A stretch of DNA of 64,000 bases from Robiginitalea sp. SC105. GTDB lineage: Bacteria > Bacteroidota > Bacteroidia > Flavobacteriales > Flavobacteriaceae. The DNA is taken from contig NZ_JACLZF010000001.1 in assembly GCF_014243345.1 (NCBI RefSeq), forward strand, positions 1,426,001 to 1,490,000, given 5' to 3'. The translations under genes were made by a program, and so were the position numbers. Under the pieces are notes generated by a model. The model worked only from the letters and a program-made list of their open reading frames with translations, searched no databases and was not told the DNA's origin. Shown here in pieces: positions 10,402 to 63,263 of the stretch; positions within the stretch are counted from its first letter, which is position 1; each line of letters begins with the position of its first letter.

Positions 10402-11112
10402 ATGAAACATTCCTATCTGATTCCGGCCCTGGTCATTGCCCTGGGGCTCACCCTGGCGGGTTATTTTATCGGGGATACCTTCCTGAGAGGCAAAAAATTT
10501 GACCGCTACGTCTCCGTAAAGGGGCTTTCGGAACGGGAAGTCCCCGCCGACCTGGCCGTCTGGCCCATCAACATCGTCCTCACGGGCAATGACCTGCAAA
10601 CGCTGCGCAGGGAGATAGAATCCCAGAACCAGAAGGTGTATCAATTCTTTATGGACCAGGGGTTCGATGCGTCCGAGGTCACCCGCGGGGGCGCCAATAT
10701 CAGCGATGCGCAGGCAAATATCTACAATTCCAACGCTCAGTACAGTGCGTTCCGCTACCTGGCCAAATCGGAACTGACGGTGCGCACCTCGGATATCGAA
10801 AAATTGCAGCGTTCCCTGGACGCATCCCTGGGCCTGCTTTCTGAGGGGATTCTCTTTGGCTCCAAGAACGAATGGCAGCCGGTGGAATACATCTATACGG
10901 GCCTAAACGAAATCAAACCGGAAATGATTGAAGAAGCGACCAAAAACGCCCGGGAGGTGGCCGACAAATTTGCCCGCGACTCGGATTCCGAGGTGGGGGA
11001 GATACGAGTGGCCCGCCAGGGCCTCTTCACCATCAGCGACCGGGATGCCAATACCCCCCAGATCAAGAAGGTGCGGGTGGTATCTACCATCGATTTCCAA
11101 TTGGTCGACTGA
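10402..11112 (+). CDS. SIMPL-domain (DUF541) protein with N-terminal membrane anchor
   Basis: The 236-residue protein starts with one transmembrane segment (about residues 5-24, LIPALVIALGLTLAGYFIG) and continues with a SIMPL/DUF541 domain: FDRYVSVKGLSEREVPADLAVWPI near the start and a C-terminal KKVRVVSTIDFQL strand. It lacks an obvious cleavage site and so is probably anchored facing the periplasm. It differs from the SIMPL protein at 8108, which has a cleavable signal. It is convergent with gldA, with 55 bases between them and no clear terminator. Confidence 0.8.
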   Translation: MKHSYLIPALVIALGLTLAGYFIGDTFLRGKKFDRYVSVKGLSEREVPADLAVWPINIVLTGNDLQTLRREIESQNQKVYQFFMDQGFDASEVTRGGANISDAQANIYNSNAQYSAFRYLAKSELTVRTSDIEKLQRSLDASLGLLSEGILFGSKNEWQPVEYIYTGLNEIKPEMIEEATKNAREVADKFARDSDSEVGEIRVARQGLFTISDRDANTPQIKKVRVVSTIDFQLVD

Positions 11113-11167
11113 TCGGACGCAACCGACAGAGCCCACGGGTCGGGGGTTAAAAGTTGAGGTGTGACCT

Positions 11168-12085
11168 TCAGTTGTTGAGTGGCTGCCCTGCACCGGACGT
11201 CAGTTCGGTAAACAGGCTTTCCAGGTTCTTCGTCTTCCGGGCCAGCTGCAGCGTCTTAAGCTCGTTGTCGTGGGCAAAATCAAAAACCGCCGGGCGCATA
11301 TCGGTGTCCGTGCTGAACTGCAACTCATACACAAAGCCCCCTGTGTTCCGCACCGCGGTTACATGGGGCAACCGCTCCAGCAAAACTTCCTCTACCCGGT
11401 AATCGAACTCCACCTCGATTATCTGGGCCTCGTCCTTCCGCAATTCCTTCAGGGAGGCATCCGCAACCAGCTGCCCTTTGTTGATGATGAGCACCCGGTC
11501 GCAAACTGCCTCCACCTCCTTCATGATGTGGGTGGAGAGCAGGATGGTCTTTTCCCTTGAAATTTCCCGCAATAGCTTGCGGATTTCCAGCAGCTGGTTC
11601 GGGTCCAGGCCCGTGGTGGGCTCATCCAGGATGAGCACTTCCGGGTTGTGCAGGAGGGCGGCGGCCAGGCCCACCCGCTGCCGGTAGCCCTTGGATAGCT
11701 GGCCGATTTTTTTGCCGGCTTCCGGGCCCAGGCCCGTCTGTTCCACCACTTCCCCGATCCGCTCCCGGGGCGTGCCGTAAACCGAGGCGCAGAACCCGAG
11801 GTATTCCCGGACATACAGGTCCAGGTAAAGCGGATTGTGTTCCGGGAGGTACCCCAGGCTGCGTTGCACTTCCCGGGGTTGCCGCGCCACGTCAAAACCG
11901 TTGACCTCCGCGGTACCCGAATCTGCGCGATAGTAGGTGGTCAGGATCTTCATCAGTGTGGATTTACCGGCCCCGTTGGGCCCGAGGAAGCCGACTACTT
12001 CGCCTTTCTTGACAGTGAAACTGATCCCGTCCAGGGCCAGCTGTGACCCGAATTTTTTGGATACCCCCGATACGCGGATTGACAT
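11168..12085 (-). CDS. gldA: gliding motility ABC transporter ATPase GldA
   Basis: A 305-residue ABC ATPase with Walker A GPNGAGKST (residues 35-43), Q-loop region GYLPEHNPLY, signature LSKGYRQRV and Walker B VLILDEPTTGLDP. The N-terminal sequence MSIRVSGVSKKFGSQLALDGISF and overall pattern match GldA, the ATPase that with GldF and GldG forms an ABC transporter tied to gliding in flavobacteria. gldF/gldG are not in the window. The start at 12085 begins the ABC domain; the frame continues 17 codons upstream across the probable promoter, so the longer start is rejected. Confidence 0.88.
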   Translation of the reverse strand: MSIRVSGVSKKFGSQLALDGISFTVKKGEVVGFLGPNGAGKSTLMKILTTYYRADSGTAEVNGFDVARQPREVQRSLGYLPEHNPLYLDLYVREYLGFCASVYGTPRERIGEVVEQTGLGPEAGKKIGQLSKGYRQRVGLAAALLHNPEVLILDEPTTGLDPNQLLEIRKLLREISREKTILLSTHIMKEVEAVCDRVLIINKGQLVADASLKELRKDEAQIIEVEFDYRVEEVLLERLPHVTAVRNTGGFVYELQFSTDTDMRPAVFDFAHDNELKTLQLARKTKNLESLFTELTSGAGQPLNN

Positions 12086-55485: not shown

Positions 55486-55729
55486 AATTCTTCTACAGGA
55501 GCCTTCAGCAGGTAGATTTTCACCCGTTTAACAAACGGACCTGGCATCGGTACGTTAATGGAAATACCAATCTGGGAAGAATTTCCTTTTTAAAATATTG
55601 AACGCATCCGAAAAATTCGTGCTGAACGGTTAGGTGCCCGATCAGTTTGTCCGGATTTATCGGCCAAGCAGGAATTCGGACACCCTACCGGTTCCCCCGG
55701 GTTATCTTGAATCATGATAATCCGACCCC

Positions 55730-56107
55730 ATGCGTGCAAGTAGCAATATCCTGAATGCCTCCTTCATTTTGGCGATGCTTTTCCTGATGCAATCCTGTAT
55801 TGTTTATTATCCGGCCCCGGTTAAACTTGAGGAAGCAGTGATGGCGGAAACACCGGTTAAAATAAGGCGGCATGCCGATCCCACCCTTCGGCTCAAATAC
55901 CTGGAGGAACAGCAGGGCCAGCTGCTGGGCCATACCCGTCGCGGGGACACGATCCTCATTGATCGGTCGGAAATCAGCGAAGTGTTACTTATGGATAAAT
56001 CCGCATCGACCCACGGGACGGTATTGATCTCCATTCTCGCGGGCGGGGTTTTAATCGGTCTTATTGCCATGGGTATCTGGGCAGCCAACTTTTCCATAGG
56101 GGGATAG
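55730..56107 (+). CDS. small lipoprotein, unknown function
   Basis: A 125-residue protein with a lipoprotein signal peptide (LFLMQSC, lipid-attached Cys about 23) and a hydrophobic segment near the C-terminus (VLISILAGGVLIGLIAMGIWA). A middle region of short strands (DTILIDRSEISEVLLMDK) is unassigned. Two hydrophobic regions in a small envelope protein are unusual. It lies at the left edge of the lower-GC block and a weak CCCTT/AAGGG hairpin follows. Confidence 0.65.
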   Translation: MRASSNILNASFILAMLFLMQSCIVYYPAPVKLEEAVMAETPVKIRRHADPTLRLKYLEEQQGQLLGHTRRGDTILIDRSEISEVLLMDKSASTHGTVLISILAGGVLIGLIAMGIWAANFSIGG

Positions 56108-56226
56108 CCTGGGTACATCTTCCCTTGGAACGATAAGGGAGAAAACGAATTTTGATTATATTGTAGGAACTTGGTCCTGCTCGGGAATTTCCCCTGCCCG
56201 TCGGGGTTAAATACACACCGGTGCAT

Positions 56227-57276
56227 ATGATTTCTTACAGAACCGCCACCGCTGGGGATAACTCGCAATTACTGAGCCTTACCCGTTCTTCGGGGATGTC
56301 CGGGACGATAGCACTGCGTACGGATCGCGACCCTGACTTTTTTGCGATAATGAAACTTCGGGGGGAAAGCCGGGTGTTCGTTGCCTTGGATGGTGAAAAG
56401 CTGGTTGGGAGTATTTGTGTTTCCAAAGAAGAAGTTTTTGTCAGCGGGGGGAATACCCCCCTTTTTTATATAACGGATTTTAAAGTTGACCCAGCATACC
56501 GAAATCTGGGGATCGGCCTTGAGCTGACCTGGGAGGTTGTCCGTTATTTGGTTGCCCGTAAAGCGGACCTGGCCTTGCTGCATGTTGCTCATGGAAACAA
56601 ACGCCCCTTCGTCTTTTTCAGGGATCGTGAAAAATATCCCGATTTTGAAAGTATCGGACTTTTTCGGATCTATCAGTTCCCTGCAGCGCGGAAGCGCTTA
56701 AAGAAAAGACCTGACATTCGTGTCCTTAAATCCGGCAAGATGGTGCTCGAGTTCCTCAACGGCCATTACGGCAATCGGGAATTGGCCCGATTGATTGTGC
56801 CCGGCGACCTGGAAGGAGTTCAGACCCTGGCCGTTTTCCGCAACGACCAACCTGTGGCGATGCTTTGCCTTCAGGATATCAATAGCATCAAACGACACGT
56901 CGTTTTGGGGATGCCCTGGTATTTGAAGGCAACCGTGGCTGTTCTTAATGTAATGCGGCCCATCACGGGTACACCGCGGCTTCCTCGCGTTGGAGAGCCC
57001 ATTCGGATGCTTCATATCAAGTACCTCGCCTCGCCGAAGGCAGATCGGAATGCAGTCCGTAATCTTATTGCCTTTGCCAGGAGGGAGGCTTACTCAAAAT
57101 CCTGTGTTTTTCTGTCACACGGACTTCACGAAAAGGACCCGCTGATCGGATGCCTGCCACGTCGGGGCAACATTGTTTTCAAATCCACCGGGATGCTGGT
57201 AAGTATGCTGCGAAGCCATCGCAAATTGGAACGTATCCGGCATGGAGTACCCTTCAAGGATTTCAGTACTGTTTAA
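56227..57276 (+). CDS. GNAT-fold acyltransferase, probably two GNAT-like halves
   Basis: A 349-residue protein. The N-terminal half is a GNAT domain with the acetyl-CoA-binding R-x-x-G-x-G motif in DFKVDPAYRNLGIGLELTWEVVRYL (about residue 95). The C-terminal half (about 180-349) has similar secondary structure and may be a degenerate second GNAT. Substrate unknown; it could acylate an amine or amino-acid headgroup. It ends 24 bases before the ADO-like gene and is probably cotranscribed with it. An upstream in-frame GTG (56221) is two codons earlier. Codon use is visibly more AT-rich than in the dcw genes. Confidence 0.8.
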   Translation: MISYRTATAGDNSQLLSLTRSSGMSGTIALRTDRDPDFFAIMKLRGESRVFVALDGEKLVGSICVSKEEVFVSGGNTPLFYITDFKVDPAYRNLGIGLELTWEVVRYLVARKADLALLHVAHGNKRPFVFFRDREKYPDFESIGLFRIYQFPAARKRLKKRPDIRVLKSGKMVLEFLNGHYGNRELARLIVPGDLEGVQTLAVFRNDQPVAMLCLQDINSIKRHVVLGMPWYLKATVAVLNVMRPITGTPRLPRVGEPIRMLHIKYLASPKADRNAVRNLIAFARREAYSKSCVFLSHGLHEKDPLIGCLPRRGNIVFKSTGMLVSMLRSHRKLERIRHGVPFKDFSTV

Positions 57277-57300
57277 ATCTATTCACCAAAAACAACCAAT

Positions 57301-58038
57301 ATGGAAACCTTTCAGATTGATTTCAGCTTACCGGAAGTACAAAGTGTGGTATCGGATATCTATTCCCAGGCCATAACCGGGGAACTCGTGGGCATGAGCA
57401 ATTTTGCCGCCCTGGCCGGAACGATTGATGACCCCCATGAAAAAATGGAAGCCGTTGAACACGCCGACAGTGAACGCAAGCATGCAGAGGGTTTTATGGC
57501 CTATGCCCGCAAGGCGGGATTACCCGTGAACATCAATATGGAAGGTGCGTATTGGAAAAGAGTTCGTCGGCAGTTTCTGAACTATGCGGATAAGAATGAT
57601 TTTATTGCGTGTGTCATCATACAGGAAGTGATGCTGGAATCGTTTGCCGTTTCCATGTACACCGATGCCGGCAAGGCACTTGGAGGAGAATCCGAGCGCT
57701 TATTCCTTGCTATCGCCGATGAGGAACGGGAACATTTGGAGCATTCAATAGATTTGTTGAAGCACGAATTGAGTAAAGATCCTGTGGGCTTTGTAGATAA
57801 ATTTGAGGAGATCCATTTCAATTGTATGAACATCCTGTCCGAGTTTTCGGCGACTACCGACCTGGGCGGACACTGCGGGGTATGTCATGGGGATTGCATG
57901 AAGGAATCGCTACATCATGTAGGTCTTGAAGCCGCTACATTGCGGGGCAATGCCCTCAAGCTATACGCCAGTACGCTGGATCGTATTGGAATTCCCGGGG
58001 AAAAATCAATTGTATGGATCGCCAAACTACCGGCCTAG
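57301..58038 (+). CDS. aldehyde-deformylating-oxygenase-like ferritin-fold diiron protein
   Basis: A 245-residue all-helical protein that aligns by eye with cyanobacterial ADO along its length. All six iron ligands have counterparts: E28; E58 and H61 in ERKHAEGF (ADO: EMRHKKGF); E113 in IIQEVMLESFAVSMY (ADO: LIQALIIECFAIAAY); E142 and H145 in DEEREHLEH. The C-terminal LYASTLDRIGI also matches. ADO converts fatty aldehydes to alkanes plus formate. A distinctive loop holds C192-x2-C195-x3-C199, not known to me in cyanobacterial ADO. It overlaps the AAR-like gene by 25 bases. Product and activity need proof; another diiron oxygenase role is possible. Confidence 0.82.
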   Translation: METFQIDFSLPEVQSVVSDIYSQAITGELVGMSNFAALAGTIDDPHEKMEAVEHADSERKHAEGFMAYARKAGLPVNINMEGAYWKRVRRQFLNYADKNDFIACVIIQEVMLESFAVSMYTDAGKALGGESERLFLAIADEEREHLEHSIDLLKHELSKDPVGFVDKFEEIHFNCMNILSEFSATTDLGGHCGVCHGDCMKESLHHVGLEAATLRGNALKLYASTLDRIGIPGEKSIVWIAKLPA

Positions 58039-59087
58039 ACTTTGCGGTTATCGGCCATCAGGATAACTGGGCCAACATCCGGAGTCTGATCAATATCATG
58101 CGGACGGATGCCCTGGAGGCTTTACCTGTCTCAAAAATCAGGGAGGTCTATGATTATATACCTCCCAGGGCAATTTTCAGGATGCATGTGACATCCCCGC
58201 TGGGGATGACGCGGAGCGGACTCTATATAGAAACTTTTATTGCACCAGATAAGCTAACAGCGGATCACCTTCGGGAGAATATTCAAAAGGTCCGTGATGC
58301 GGTAGCCGCAACCTACCGGCTGGGGATCCCCATGGTAATCCTCGGGGGTTTTACATCCTTGTTGCTGGAGGGAAACATTGATGATTTTCGGGAATACGGC
58401 ATGGCAGTCACCACGGGAAACACACTTACCGCAGCCTACGTGATCAAAGGTATTGAAAAGGCCGTCCGGCAAGAAGGCAAGCGACTTCGGGATTGCCGTG
58501 TTCTGATCATCGGTGCCACGGGTGATATCGGAATGGCTTGTACGAACTACCTCAAGGGAAAAACAAAGGGTGTGCTCCTGTGTGCCCGGAACCGCGCCAG
58601 ACTCGAGCGTTTCGGCAGGAGAATTGAAAATGAAGGACACGAGGTAAAATGGTCAACCCGGATTGACGAGCTCTCTGGTTCTGCTGACATTATTATCAGC
58701 GTAGCCAGCTCAAGTGACATTGGGGTCAGCCATCTCAAAGGCGATGTAATAATCTGCGATGCCGGTTATCCGAAAAACCTTGAAGAGAAATTAAAAGATC
58801 ATCCCTCCGTGAAGTTATTTCATGGTGGTATGGGACAACTCCATCACGGATACTTGTTCGATCCGGATTACACCACTGGCTTTTACAGATACCCAGCAGA
58901 GCATCTGGGGCATGGCTGTATCATTGAGGTAATCCTCCTGGCCCTGGAAAACCGGTTGGAGAACTATACGATCGGCAAGGGAAATATATCGGAGGAGAAG
59001 ATAGAGGAAATCTACGCATTAAGCCTGAAACACGGGATTACGCTGGCGCCGTTTTACAACGGCAACGGATTGTGGCCGGATCAGTAA
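58014..59087 (+). CDS. long-chain acyl-ACP reductase homologue (cyanobacterial AAR type)
   Basis: A 357-residue protein closely patterned on cyanobacterial acyl-ACP reductase. It shows FAVIGH near the start, LGGFTSLLLEG, TTGNTLTAAYVI, the NADPH-binding GATGDIG (residues 167-173), CDAGYPKNL, and Cys302 in GHGCIIEVILLALE, which aligns with the catalytic Cys of the Synechococcus enzyme (ACFAEAMLLEFE). AAR reduces acyl-ACP to fatty aldehyde. It overlaps the ADO-like gene by 25 bases, so the two products are probably made together, as the cyanobacterial alkane pathway requires. The BtaA-like gene follows by 12 bases. Confidence 0.9.
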   Translation: MDRQTTGLDFAVIGHQDNWANIRSLINIMRTDALEALPVSKIREVYDYIPPRAIFRMHVTSPLGMTRSGLYIETFIAPDKLTADHLRENIQKVRDAVAATYRLGIPMVILGGFTSLLLEGNIDDFREYGMAVTTGNTLTAAYVIKGIEKAVRQEGKRLRDCRVLIIGATGDIGMACTNYLKGKTKGVLLCARNRARLERFGRRIENEGHEVKWSTRIDELSGSADIIISVASSSDIGVSHLKGDVIICDAGYPKNLEEKLKDHPSVKLFHGGMGQLHHGYLFDPDYTTGFYRYPAEHLGHGCIIEVILLALENRLENYTIGKGNISEEKIEEIYALSLKHGITLAPFYNGNGLWPDQ

Positions 59088-59099
59088 GAAAAATCAATC

Positions 59100-60209
59100 A
59101 TGAATAAGAATAAAGAACAGGTTCAACTGTCCAAACTCGTTTTCACCCAGAGCTGGGAGGATCCGCTCTGTGATCACAGGGCCCTTGAAATCCGAAAGGG
59201 GGATACTGTGGTTGCAATTACTTCAGGAGGATGCAACATCCTGGGTTTTCTACTTTTTGATCCCGGGAAAATATTCTGCCTGGACATTAACCCGGCACAA
59301 TCCTATTTACTTGAATTAAAAATCGCGGCAATGCGAGTTCTTACATTTGATGAGTTTCAGTGCTTTTCAGGTTTGACATCTGGCTTTGACCGGATGACCC
59401 TCTTTGCGAAGGTGGTGGAGCAACTCGGACCCGGCGCAACTTCCTTCTGGGCATCCCGGACCGCAATTATCGAAAACGGATTTATTATGCAAGGCAGGTA
59501 TGACCGGTTCGTGAAATTCGCCGGGCGCGTTTTGAAGGTCCTGCAGGGAAAAGACCGTATCAACCGTCTGATGGAGAAAAAGAGTGAGGGGGAGCAGCAC
59601 AAATTCTATGACGAGGTCTGGGACACGTGGCAATACCGGGCGATTTACAAATTGCTTTTCAATAAGCACGTACTGGCAAGGAAAGGGCTATCGGCGGACT
59701 ATTTCCACTTTGACGACGGAAGTGCCTCATTTGCGGAGAGTTTTTATCGCAGGGCTCGGAATGCCTTCCGCAATTTGCCGATAGAAGGAAATTATTTTCT
59801 TTCTCTTTATGTTACGGGAAGCTATGCCGACCCCCATCAGGTACCGGATTATTTGAAACAGGAATACTTTGAAATTATCCGATCTCGCCTGGATCGTTTA
59901 AATATTCTGACCACGGACGCTCAATCCTGGCTTGATAATCAGGGCATGGAGCAGATTGATTGCTTTGCCCTATCTAATATTTGCGAATTGATGAGCGAAG
60001 ATGAGACCAACAGGCTTTTTGAAGCGGTTGGCAGGATAGCCAGTCACCGGGCCCGTGTTATTTTTCGAAACCTGATTATCCCGCGAGAGGTACCACACTA
60101 CTTAAATAATACCATAGTCAAAAATGAGCAGTTAAGCCGTGAGTTGCTGAGCAGCGACCGCTCATTCGTCTATGGGAAGGTTGCGGCCTATTCGGTGGTC
60201 AAAGGATAG
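59100..60209 (+). CDS. BtaA-like (DUF3419) SAM 3-amino-3-carboxypropyl transferase
   Basis: A 369-residue protein with the DUF3419/BtaA hallmarks FTQSWEDPLCDHRAL, AITSGGCNILGFLL and CLDINPAQSYLLELKIAAM, the last two forming the SAM-binding Rossmann core. BtaA transfers the aminocarboxypropyl group of SAM to diacylglycerol, the first step of betaine lipid (DGTS) synthesis. The partner methyltransferase BtaB is absent from the window, so the product may be an unmethylated or different homoserine-type lipid. It is 12 bases after the AAR-like gene and ends 19 bases before the convergent exporter gene. Confidence 0.85.
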   Translation: MNKNKEQVQLSKLVFTQSWEDPLCDHRALEIRKGDTVVAITSGGCNILGFLLFDPGKIFCLDINPAQSYLLELKIAAMRVLTFDEFQCFSGLTSGFDRMTLFAKVVEQLGPGATSFWASRTAIIENGFIMQGRYDRFVKFAGRVLKVLQGKDRINRLMEKKSEGEQHKFYDEVWDTWQYRAIYKLLFNKHVLARKGLSADYFHFDDGSASFAESFYRRARNAFRNLPIEGNYFLSLYVTGSYADPHQVPDYLKQEYFEIIRSRLDRLNILTTDAQSWLDNQGMEQIDCFALSNICELMSEDETNRLFEAVGRIASHRARVIFRNLIIPREVPHYLNNTIVKNEQLSRELLSSDRSFVYGKVAAYSVVKG

Positions 60210-60228
60210 GGTTTCAGACGCCCTGCAA

Positions 60229-62127
60229 TTACTCATTTTTTTTGTGCACGAGCCTCAGGAAATGAGGAAGCAGCAGGATATCTCCCAAAAGCGCCATCGC
60301 GATGGCCGAAATACTGAGCAAACCAAAATACCGGACAGGCGGGGAACCGGACAATAACAAAATCACAAAACCGGAACAAATGACAAAAGAGGTAATCACA
60401 ATTCCGGGACCCGCTTTCTGCAATGCCAATTCCTCGTCCCTGGTGACTTTATACCAATGCATGAAGTGGAAAGTGTCATCCACTACGATGCTCAGAAGGA
60501 GGCATCCAATCGGGATAGTGACCATGTCCAGGCGGATATTCAACCAGCCCATGAGTCCCAGCATTACCAGAATCGGGAGTATATTAACCACCATCGCAGG
60601 CAGCAGGAGTTTCCATCGCCCCAGATAAATTGCCATGATAATGGAAATAACAATAAAGCCGAATAGCAGACTTTGTCGAAATGCCTCTAGCAACGCATCC
60701 GCTATATTGGCATAGAGGGTCATAAAGCCCTGCAGTAGGGGTCTCTGGGATTTAAAATATGGCTTCCCCAGTTCGTCGATCCGCTCGGTCAGCAATTTTC
60801 CATCGGAAGTCGACATCAACGGGACAAAAAATGTAATCCGGTGCTTGTCCGGATCAGCCTTTGAACGATAACCGATGGCCTGCAGATCTTGAAGGGGCGG
60901 GAACCGGTGGAAGGAAGCCACAGCACCTACTTCCGGCATATCGTAAACGTCGTGTACCCAACGGCTAATCAGGTTCCTTGGTGTCCGTTCGTCGTCAATT
61001 ACATACTCCAGGGGGAAATAGGGGCCCACAAGTTCTTCGACCTTTTCGTGGTCATAGAAAGCTTTACTGGAAGGATCCAGAATGGCCAGGCTGTAGATTT
61101 CCGATTTCAGTTGCCATATCCCGGGGAAAGCAACCAGGCATAGTGCTAGTGAGGCAGGTACCAGCCAGCGGCTATCAGGTCTGGGAAAATGTATTATTCT
61201 CTTGAAAAACAATCTCTTGCGGTATCGGTATGTATTCGGATAAAACATCAATATTGAAGCGCCGAAGACCCCTGCAATACCTGTAATGCCCAGAACGGCA
61301 AAATCCGTAAGAAGCGGAATTCCGCTAAAAAGAAAGGCCGAAAACCCCAAAACCGTGGTAGACGAAACCCAAATAGCAGGCACCAGGATTTTCCGGAAAT
61401 CACCCTTATGGGACAGCACGTGCATGGAAATCGAGGTGCTGTAAAAAAGGATCAGCAGTGGGATTACGGTATGAGCTATACTCAACGGAATCCCGGCGAG
61501 AACCGAAATGAATACCAAGGAAGCAATAGCTGCAAGGGCTACCAGGAGGGTTTGCAGGATTGCTATCAGGTCGCCTATCACAATAACCACAAATACCAGA
61601 AGGACCAAAATCCCGGTCAGCAGGAATCGTGTAGCATCGCGGGAGGTCTGCTGGTTTATGGCACGGGCAATGACCCCTGTTCCAGCCAGGTGATAATCCA
61701 TGCCCCGGTCATTCATAATGGCATCGATCCGATCAAGCAATTCCGGCCGGTTCGGATTTGAATGTGATTCTGGCCGGAAGCGGATCAGGTAGGTTGTATA
61801 GCCTTCCCCGGCAGGTTTCTTATGCTGCACATACCTTGCGGGCCAGTTTCCGACCCCCATAACGTAGTCCAGTTCTTCCAAAGACAGCAGTTCTGTATCA
61901 ATGCTTTTCTCAGCCTGCGGATTGTCGCGTGTATCCAGTACGAGAATCAGCAAGGCGTCGGATCCGAAATCTTCAATGAAATTCTGATATTGTTTCAGTT
62001 CCTGCGATTGCACGGGCAACCACCGCTCCAGCGAATTGTCCAGATCTATTTCCGGAATCAAAAAAATGGCGGATAGAATATACAGAAGGGCTCCGGTTAT
62101 CCTTATGAGTGGTTTTTTCTGAGCCAT
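60229..62127 (-). CDS. RND/MMPL-superfamily exporter
   Basis: A 632-residue membrane protein with one N-terminal helix, a periplasmic loop (about 30-170), a block of five helices, a second loop (about 350-470) and another five helices, the duplicated RND layout in the short form seen in MmpL and hopanoid (HAE3-type) transporters. The intramembrane segments LFYSTSISMHVLSH and IVVDDTFHFMHWY occupy the place of RND proton-relay helices. Such transporters move lipids or hydrophobic molecules. It converges on the AAR/ADO/BtaA-like operon, so an export role for that product is inferred. The 245 bases before its start hold only a weak TTTATTTG element. Confidence 0.85.
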   Translation of the reverse strand: MAQKKPLIRITGALLYILSAIFLIPEIDLDNSLERWLPVQSQELKQYQNFIEDFGSDALLILVLDTRDNPQAEKSIDTELLSLEELDYVMGVGNWPARYVQHKKPAGEGYTTYLIRFRPESHSNPNRPELLDRIDAIMNDRGMDYHLAGTGVIARAINQQTSRDATRFLLTGILVLLVFVVIVIGDLIAILQTLLVALAAIASLVFISVLAGIPLSIAHTVIPLLILFYSTSISMHVLSHKGDFRKILVPAIWVSSTTVLGFSAFLFSGIPLLTDFAVLGITGIAGVFGASILMFYPNTYRYRKRLFFKRIIHFPRPDSRWLVPASLALCLVAFPGIWQLKSEIYSLAILDPSSKAFYDHEKVEELVGPYFPLEYVIDDERTPRNLISRWVHDVYDMPEVGAVASFHRFPPLQDLQAIGYRSKADPDKHRITFFVPLMSTSDGKLLTERIDELGKPYFKSQRPLLQGFMTLYANIADALLEAFRQSLLFGFIVISIIMAIYLGRWKLLLPAMVVNILPILVMLGLMGWLNIRLDMVTIPIGCLLLSIVVDDTFHFMHWYKVTRDEELALQKAGPGIVITSFVICSGFVILLLSGSPPVRYFGLLSISAIAMALLGDILLLPHFLRLVHKKNE

Positions 62128-62372
62128 TGAAAATGCGATTTTCCAACCCCGTGAGGCATGTTAGGAGAATACGGGACAAATAAAGCAATCAGGAAGTTAG
62201 GAATAAAATTCGATCTCGTCCTTAAGGTAAGGCAGGTTATATACCTTACTACCGGGGTATAAGTAATTCTGGCCCGGAAAGTCTTATTTGGAAGATAGCC
62301 ATGATCAGATTTCATAAAGGCGGGCATACCGGATGTTTTTGGTATCTTCCGTATACCTAAAACTCGGAGATC

Positions 62373-63263
62373 ATGCGTACACTTAAAACCCTTTTACTGC
62401 CGGTTGCCCTACTTATTGTGCAGCTGCTGCCTGCCCAACGGGACTGGGACCAGGTTCAGATTACCCCGGAAAAAGTAACCGATAACCTGTACGTCCTTTT
62501 TGGAGCCGGCGGGAACATCGGCCTGGCGCTGGGGGAGGAATACGCCTACGTCATCGACGACCAGTTCGCCCAGCTGACCGACAAGATCCTTGCCGCCATC
62601 CGTGGCATCACCGATAAGCCAGTGCGCTTCGTGGTAAATACCCACTGGCACGGCGACCACGTGGGGGGCAATGAAAACCTGGCCGCCCAGGGGGCCATCC
62701 TGGTGGCCCATGAAAACGTGCGCAAGCGGATGAACTCCCGTACCGACCGGGGGGACCGGGGCGTTTCTGAACCGGCGCCTTACGGGGCTCTCTCCAAGAT
62801 CACTTTCAGTGAGGAAATGACCATCCACCTGGGCCCTGACCGCAGCCTGCACCTGATGTATGTGGACCCTGCCCATACGGACGGGGACTCCTACAGCTAC
62901 TTTCCACAGGAGAATGCTATACATATGGGGGATAACTTTGTGGACGGGTACCCGTTTATCGATATCAGCTCCGGGGGCGATATCGACGGGCTGATCAGGA
63001 ACCTGAACATGGCCCTATTCATTGTGGATGACCAGACGAAAATCATCCCGGGTCACGGCCCGGTGATGGGGCGCACCGACCTGATTGCCTTCCGCGATAT
63101 GCTATCGGCCATCCGGACACGCGTGAAACAGGCCCGCGACAGCGGGAAATCCCTAGAGGAGGTGCAGGCCATGGGGCTGACCAAAGAATGGGACGCTGCC
63201 AAAGGGCAGGGCTTCATCGGCCCGGCCCAGATTGTGCAGTTCGCCTTCGAGACCGCGGACTGA
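62373..63263 (+). CDS. secreted metallo-beta-lactamase-fold hydrolase
   Basis: A 296-residue MBL-fold protein with a signal peptide (cleavage near LPAQ). The zinc motif is H91-W-H93-G-D95-H96, with further ligands in DPAHTDGD and PGHGPV. The family includes B3-like beta-lactamases, lactonases and quinoprotein relay enzymes, so substrate is open. It is outside the low-GC block by composition. The 245-base gap upstream contains its probable promoter (TATCTTCC, about 62351). Confidence 0.88.
   Translation: MRTLKTLLLPVALLIVQLLPAQRDWDQVQITPEKVTDNLYVLFGAGGNIGLALGEEYAYVIDDQFAQLTDKILAAIRGITDKPVRFVVNTHWHGDHVGGNENLAAQGAILVAHENVRKRMNSRTDRGDRGVSEPAPYGALSKITFSEEMTIHLGPDRSLHLMYVDPAHTDGDSYSYFPQENAIHMGDNFVDGYPFIDISSGGDIDGLIRNLNMALFIVDDQTKIIPGHGPVMGRTDLIAFRDMLSAIRTRVKQARDSGKSLEEVQAMGLTKEWDAAKGQGFIGPAQIVQFAFETAD

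Follow-up and report, generated by a model that had tools for sequence, protein, structure and literature searches.

A patchy GNAT–ADO–AAR–DUF3419 operon in Bacteroidota as a candidate for fatty-aldehyde-based lipid synthesis

We analysed a 64,000-nucleotide stretch of the genome of Robiginitalea sp. SC105 (the window, to which all positions refer), in which four co-directional genes follow one another in the order GNAT, ADO-like, AAR-like and DUF3419, before a convergent RND/MMPL-type gene. The AAR/ADO pair is usually regarded as the alkane route of cyanobacteria, and a first-pass annotation of this DNA had described such a pair here; both open reading frames (ORFs) were found where it had placed them, at 57301–58038 (245 residues) and 58014–59087 (357 residues). 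The operon lies on a contig of 2.06 Mb, in a genome of 3.58 Mb, and assembly contamination is an unlikely source, as the genome is rated 99.99% complete and 0.2% contaminated and the operon stands inside that contig. The locus comprises the following features.

55486..62372, no strand: low-GC insert between yqeY and a metallo-beta-lactamase-fold gene, delimited by GC content and same-genus comparison
56221..57276, plus strand: tandem-GNAT protein, 351 residues, first gene of the operon and a proposed long-chain N-acyltransferase (PF00583, 40.3 bits)
57301..58038, plus strand: ADO-like ferritin-fold diiron protein, 245 residues, with conserved cysteines in its C-terminal part (PF11266, 47.6 bits)
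57814–57897, plus strand: H172–C199 stretch of the ADO-like protein (residues 172–199), marked by invariant residues in the locus alignment
58014..58038, plus strand: 25-base overlap between the stop of the ADO-like gene and the start of the AAR-like gene, with the ATG in the AAR frame
58014..59087, plus strand: AAR-like, putatively NAD(P)H-dependent acyl reductase, 357 residues, acyl-cysteine C302 (TIGR04058, 148.2 bits)
59100..60209, plus strand: DUF3419 / BtaA-like protein, 369 residues, proposed S-adenosylmethionine (SAM) 3-amino-3-carboxypropyl transferase (PF11899, 227.5 bits)
60229..62127, minus strand: RND/MMPL-type membrane protein, 632 residues, possible lipid exporter (MMPL, 20.8 bits against a cut-off of 20.5)

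A scan of 84,980 species genomes with a five-row profile of the ADO-like protein found 26 loci, all of them in Bacteroidota according to their record titles; because its two peptide patterns were drawn from Bacteroidota, distant relatives elsewhere could be missed. The comparison set initially held 31 loci, from which L004, L005, L006 and L020 were dropped for carrying an ADO identical to that of L021, L034, L031 and L042, respectively, leaving 27 including the window. Comparison of the loci gave the operon order GNAT–ADO–AAR–DUF3419 with short gaps or overlaps. The ADO-like gene is accompanied by an AAR-like gene in 27/27 loci, by a GNAT homologue upstream in 26/27 and by DUF3419 after AAR in 22/27, with two loci (L028 and L034) ending at a contig end, so that DUF3419 is countable in 25. 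The same 25-base overlap of the ADO-like and AAR-like genes, with the ATG in the AAR frame, is found again at 22 of the 27 loci and is therefore not due to chance, in line with a tight coupling of the pair; the first-pass annotation had read matched expression from it. Named strains or isolates of Algoriphagus, Tamlana, Aestuariibaculum, Rhodocytophaga, Muricauda and Aquiflexum are among the carriers, and ADO-like proteins identical to those of a Maribacter metagenome-assembled genome and of Tamlana haliotis occur in genomes of the same family as the window. Pairwise distances of the four operon proteins correlate with one another (r 0.84–0.91), to which shared species history contributes.

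On its sequence and predicted structure, the 57301–58038 protein is a distant member of the ADO superfamily. Its PF11266 match exceeds the Pfam cut-off of 28 and stands ahead of Rubrerythrin (30.1 bits), and its top NCBIfam match is TIGR04059 at 49.9 bits, which misses the equivalog cut-off of 222.65. Both ADO models are matched at E ≤ 1e-3 by the ADO-like proteins of all 27 loci, as is the Rubrerythrin model, and 17 of the 27 also match an encapsulin-cargo ferritin model, as ferritin-like proteins may. Searched against the PDB, a profile of five ADO-like proteins retrieved 20 distinct sequences at E ≤ 1e-3, all ADO; with a 27-row profile, 20 ADO sequences rank first (E 2.7e-16 to 1.5e-10), and the one other PDB sequence within that threshold is a DPS-like protein at 7.9e-4. 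The AlphaFold2 model (pLDDT 89.5, weak at residues 181–200 with block means of 59 and 67) has 27 PDB fold matches at E ≤ 1e-3, of which 26 are cyanobacterial ADO and one is an R2-like oxidase chain. The fold is the same as that of cyanobacterial ADO (TM 0.80/0.90 to 5k53), although the fold alignments show only 17–20% identity; PDB 6d9f from Kitasatospora setae, whose title names ADO activity outside cyanobacteria, ranks 32–33 by fold. We rejected membership of an unrelated ferritin family, since ADO beats Rubrerythrin by profile and leads by fold.

The diiron site points in the same direction. The six ligands named in the first-pass annotation (E28, E58, H61, E113, E142 and H145) are invariant in 27/27 loci and align with E32, E60, H63, E115, E144 and H147, the ligands of Synechococcus elongatus ADO as listed in the accessible portion of PMC4286721, at a spacing of 30/3/52/29/3 as against 28/3/52/29/3. 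Y120, likewise invariant in all 27, aligns with S. elongatus Y122, for which the same portion describes a Phe variant. The profile and structure checks that the first-pass annotation had proposed thus came out on the side of ADO, with PF11266 matched here and TIGR04058 by the neighbouring protein, and neither a better match to an unrelated ferritin family nor a loss of ligands was found in the 27 loci. The sequence match to ADO stops near residue 157–165, whereas conservation continues beyond it, with H172, C192, C195 and C199 invariant in 27/27 loci and C175 present in 25/27; these five residues may constitute a metal or Fe-S unit. Cyanobacterial ADO is not known to have counterparts of H172, C192, C195 and C199. 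As a separate observation, among the PF11266 control genomes Caulobacter vibrioides matches at E ≤ 1e-3 besides Synechococcus elongatus, and one of the two exceeds the cut-off.

Judged by its alignments, the 58014–59087 protein is a full-length AAR homologue with the acyl-cysteine. TIGR04058 covers its residues 10–342, below the cut-off of 449.7, and PigE follows as its second NCBIfam match at 93.6 bits; TIGR04058 is matched at E ≤ 1e-10 in 27/27 loci, and PigE is also matched by all 27. An alignment to PDB 6jzq (E 4.4e-30) places C302 on C294, the residue replaced by Ser in 6jzz (the C294S variant) and that appears as the acyl-enzyme cysteine in the text at hand of PMC7089970. C302 is invariant in 27/27 loci, which upholds the catalytic cysteine of the first-pass annotation, and Y247 of cyanobacterial AAR is found as Y252, kept in 26 of the 27. 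The GATGDIG loop, also named in that annotation, is present in the window protein and aligns with 162–168 of 6jzq, but across the 27 loci the NAD(P)H loop is strict only as G-x-x-G-D-I-G, A168 being Ser in six and Gly in one and T169 being Ser in one. By the same alignments, the cyanobacterial AAR–ADO docking residues are mostly not kept. In S. elongatus the docking pairs, as far as the available extract gives them, are R73/R79–E196 and K80–E200; on the AAR side, R73 and R79 correspond to H85 and Q91, which are variable, and K80 corresponds to K92, which is kept in 27/27. On the ADO side, the acidic helix-7 residues E196, E200 and D201 correspond to A212 (variable; Glu or Asp in 3/27), G216 and N217, and the alignment underlying this comparison is weak along the helix (2 bits or less).

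Since the 27 loci were mostly gathered by their ADO-like protein, the independent test of the pairing lies in searches by AAR. Of 299 same-family genomes, 17 match the AAR-like protein at E ≤ 1e-3, four strongly (E ≤ 1e-131) and 13 weakly, over part of the protein and at E 1e-5 or worse; in 4/4 genomes with a strong match, ADO lies in the same cluster. Similarly, TIGR04058 is matched at E ≤ 1e-3 in 120 of 395 phylum genomes but over its full length in only two (163.8 and 147.8 bits), the next-best match reaching 42.6 bits over positions 154–264, and these two genomes are the two with ADO. The ADO-like protein itself occurs, by protein search and by PF11266 alike, in 2/395 phylum genomes, one being the window's own, and in none of nine same-genus genomes, one of which is only 74% complete. 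An aldehyde linking the two enzymes is what we infer most firmly, as searches by AAR gave no strong AAR without ADO (4/4 in the family, 2/2 in the phylum).

The operon sits in an insert whose genes have a GC content of 0.47–0.51, as against 0.569 on one side (44.0–55.5 kb) and 0.593 on the other (62373–63263); GC content also dips, less strongly, to 0.52 at 50.5–52 kb. Its neighbourhood includes yqeY, identified by Pfam, and genes read by eye as ftsA and ftsZ. We compared the corresponding stretches of five same-genus genomes (L058, L059, L060, L061 and L063; L062 is cut by a contig end and was left out), and none of the four operon genes was matched in these five stretches, while an RND-type fragment was matched in L058. 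In L061, yqeY is directly followed by the gene that in the window stands after the insert; three other stretches carry genes between yqeY and this far-side gene, which was not found in L060. The stretch after yqeY varies among these genomes and may therefore be a hot spot for insertions. A small ORF at 55730–56107, at the left end of the insert, has a lipoprotein-like start by eye and no Pfam match.

The ADO tree separates two Algoriphagus species (L027 and L042) into different 98/97 clades, and in neither the ADO nor the AAR tree does any of the three families represented by at least three rows form a single clade. These patterns are compatible with transfer, though not proof of it; the operon is patchy and has probably spread horizontally among Bacteroidota. 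We rejected viral or plasmid carriage: viral contigs held no relative of the ADO-like protein, plasmids no ADO-like match at E ≤ 0.01, and PHROGs no match for the ADO-like or AAR-like protein, while the AAR-like protein at E ≤ 1e-8 found only two plasmid records, annotated as class III aminotransferases.

The remaining two operon genes extend the locus beyond the pair. For the tandem-GNAT protein, the AlphaFold2 model (pLDDT 92.5) has N-myristoyltransferases (NMTs) as its 24 best PDB fold matches (TMq 0.60–0.64; best 50 of 671 at E ≤ 1e-3). The C-terminus reads D[FY]xx[VI] in 24/26 GNAT copies, ending four residues after a conserved Asp, with L041 and L042 one residue longer, and the last residue is Val or Ile in 26/26; the structure alignment comprised 24 of the copies. 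NMT uses its C-terminal carboxylate. The ADO-like proteins are equally fixed at their C-terminus (LPx, 27/27), so the fixed GNAT end alone proves nothing.

The DUF3419 protein matches PF11899 over its whole length (cut-off 28.2); DUF3419 is the BtaA family. SGGCN-like and DIN stretches are conserved in the 22 operon copies; unlike BtaA, these copies stand after AAR, and they group in a single clade (SH-aLRT 98) that excludes 15 other DUF3419 proteins, in a quick tree with some long branches. The controls were picked rather than drawn, being 12 of 46 phylum genomes and 4 of 13 plasmid matches, and one of them (L098) gave no blastp match and was left out of the tree. No BtaB-like match was found in the 27 operon loci (tblastn, E ≤ 1e-4), as against 6/16 control loci, three of which had supplied the BtaB queries; the best match to a BtaB-like protein in the genome of the window reaches 24.2 bits on a different contig. 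In R. leguminosarum an annotated DUF3419 and methyltransferase pair is present. A PEP (phosphoenolpyruvate)/pyruvate-binding-type protein was matched in six other control loci of the 16 and in 0/27 operon loci (tblastn, E ≤ 1e-4). DUF3419 occurs in 46/395 phylum genomes and is thus wider than the operon. As an aside, a second DUF3419 group (L066, L090, L091, L092, L097 and L100) pairs with this large PEP/pyruvate-binding-type protein, and in L066 UbiA and AMP-binding genes stand beside the two.

Starting from what is observed, namely gene order, homology, conserved catalytic residues, fold, rarity and the insert, we tentatively favour, with somewhat less than even confidence, a dedicated fatty-aldehyde lipid operon that would make an N-acyl amino-lipid rather than a free alkane. 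In a first step, which its conserved catalytic residues suggest, the AAR-like protein would take a long-chain acyl group from acyl carrier protein (ACP) or CoA onto C302 and reduce it with NAD(P)H to a fatty aldehyde. The ADO-like diiron enzyme, whose ligands and ADO fold are established and whose reaction we infer, would then use O2 and electrons to turn the aldehyde into a one-carbon-shorter alcohol or alkane and formate. The DUF3419 protein could next move the 3-amino-3-carboxypropyl group of SAM onto a lipid, for example onto a fatty-alcohol hydroxyl, and the tandem-GNAT, NMT-like protein would N-acylate the resulting amine; desaturase, P450 or MMPL-type genes found next to some copies might modify or export the product. 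Its final form would most likely be an N-acyl amino-lipid free of phosphorus, of the O-alkyl-homoserine kind. A bolder version, to which we give a small chance, is a new Bacteroidota lipid class of the phosphorus-free N-acyl-O-alkyl-homoserine type, with an alkyl chain derived from acyl-ACP by AAR-type reduction and ADO-type oxidative deformylation, and with an ADO-type enzyme that would carry a Cys-bound metal or Fe-S unit of its own to deliver electrons.

Several points weigh against this lipid-operon reading. Of the 25 loci in which DUF3419 could be counted, three (L035, L045 and L046) have no copy nearby, and in L046 the GNAT gene is absent as well, so that neither seems strictly needed for the ADO–AAR step. 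The tandem-GNAT model resembles NMT moderately (TM about 0.6, rmsd about 4–6.5, 10–13% identity), other GNATs appear at ranks 25 and 42 among the best 50 of the 671 fold matches, and no NMT is found among the 10 PDB sequence matches of the tandem-GNAT protein at E ≤ 0.1; the likeness may therefore reflect the tandem-GNAT layout only. BtaA-type chemistry is putative for the DUF3419 clade of the operon, the proposed O-alkyl-homoserine structure has been guessed from enzyme classes, and the alcohol at the second step draws on general background, that ADO-type enzymes can give alcohols. Both the product and the enzyme activities are predicted. The amino-lipid end product is a weaker proposal than the aldehyde link, and free alkanes are a possible outcome.

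The strongest competitor, possible but less probable, is a non-cyanobacterial AAR/ADO alkane route yielding Cn-1 alkanes or alkenes, with the GNAT and DUF3419 proteins modifying something else or travelling along. The conserved ADO fold, six ligands and tyrosine, together with the AAR acyl-cysteine, are consistent with such a route, as is the fact that AAR is the sole partner found in 27/27 ADO loci, L046 having just the pair. The accessible part of PMC10176705 likewise describes, from Lake A metagenomes, Flavobacteriaceae-related "fatty aldehyde decarbonylase" genes with a proposed hydrocarbon role. However, neither the GNAT neighbour (26/27) nor DUF3419 (22/27) is required for alkanes, both equivalog cut-offs are missed, and docking residues are unconserved at two of three AAR positions and at the aligned acidic positions of ADO. 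The "cyanobacterial alkane pathway architecture" of the first-pass annotation is partly upheld, by the homology, the ligands, the acyl-cysteine and the tight coupling, but weakened by the missed NCBIfam cut-offs, the early end of the ADO match and the mostly unconserved docking residues; moreover, that annotation had overlooked the two further conserved operon genes, which a plain alkane route would not need. Of the two product options that it had offered, another aldehyde-derived lipid fits better than alkanes.

An unlikely third explanation is that the ADO-like protein has taken on a new oxidative role (hydroxylation, N-oxidation or C–C cleavage) on an acyl or amino-lipid, the AAR-like protein reducing another thioester. 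The invariant C-terminal H172, C192, C195 and C199 would suit such a change, as would the Rubrerythrin matches of all 27 proteins. A precedent is BioE of Elizabethkingia, which the available text of PMC12915131 presents as a ferritin-like diiron enzyme acting on long acyl chains with a centre analogous to that of cyanobacterial ADO. By the residue numbers given there, however, BioE has 69 residues between its ligand halves (27/3/69/30/3) rather than the 52 of the ADO-like protein; the spacing of the latter follows S. elongatus ADO, and we rejected identity with BioE on these grounds. No biotin gene was found among the genes scanned with Pfam, and an AAR homologue as partner argues for an aldehyde substrate. 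Finally, a variant of betaine-lipid (diacylglyceryl trimethylhomoserine, DGTS) synthesis under phosphate limitation, with ADO and AAR as accessories, would suit the BtaA family identity of DUF3419 and the methyltransferase that adjoins other DUF3419 genes, but is highly improbable and was rejected because the operon DUF3419 clade is separate from btaB-linked genes, no BtaB-like match was found in the 27 loci and the own-genome match is weak.

Around the operon, the fetched flanks of the 27 loci contain desaturase (9), MMPL-type (5), MmgE/PrpD (5), P450 (4) and AhpC/TSA-type (2) neighbours, these types being assigned by BLAST clustering, with one or two members of each cluster identified by Pfam. 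MMPL-type homologues occur in the flanks of the window, L021, L033, L035 and L043, and MmgE/PrpD-type genes near the operon in L037, L041, L042, L043 and L044. Between the ADO-like and AAR-like genes, an AhpC/TSA-type gene is found in L034 (10751–11446) and L035 (10749–11468), and a desaturase-cluster gene in L038 from Rhodocytophaga aerolata (10647–11657). ADO is peroxide-sensitive, which the AhpC/TSA-type genes would fit.

In the open-licence PubMed Central (PMC) literature, we found no description of a GNAT–ADO–AAR–DUF3419 operon and no lipid literature on five carrier species. PMC10176705 is a partial forerunner of the finding, its accessible part reporting the genes without operon or residue detail. 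Aldehyde-based lipid chemistry of the AAR/ADO kind may thus not be confined to cyanobacteria, and a conserved, patchy Bacteroidota counterpart would mean a second branch of this chemistry. The operon yields a testable lipid pathway and varied ADO-like enzymes of use to alkane biotechnology, and would represent either a new heterotrophic source of hydrocarbons or a new membrane or secreted lipid.

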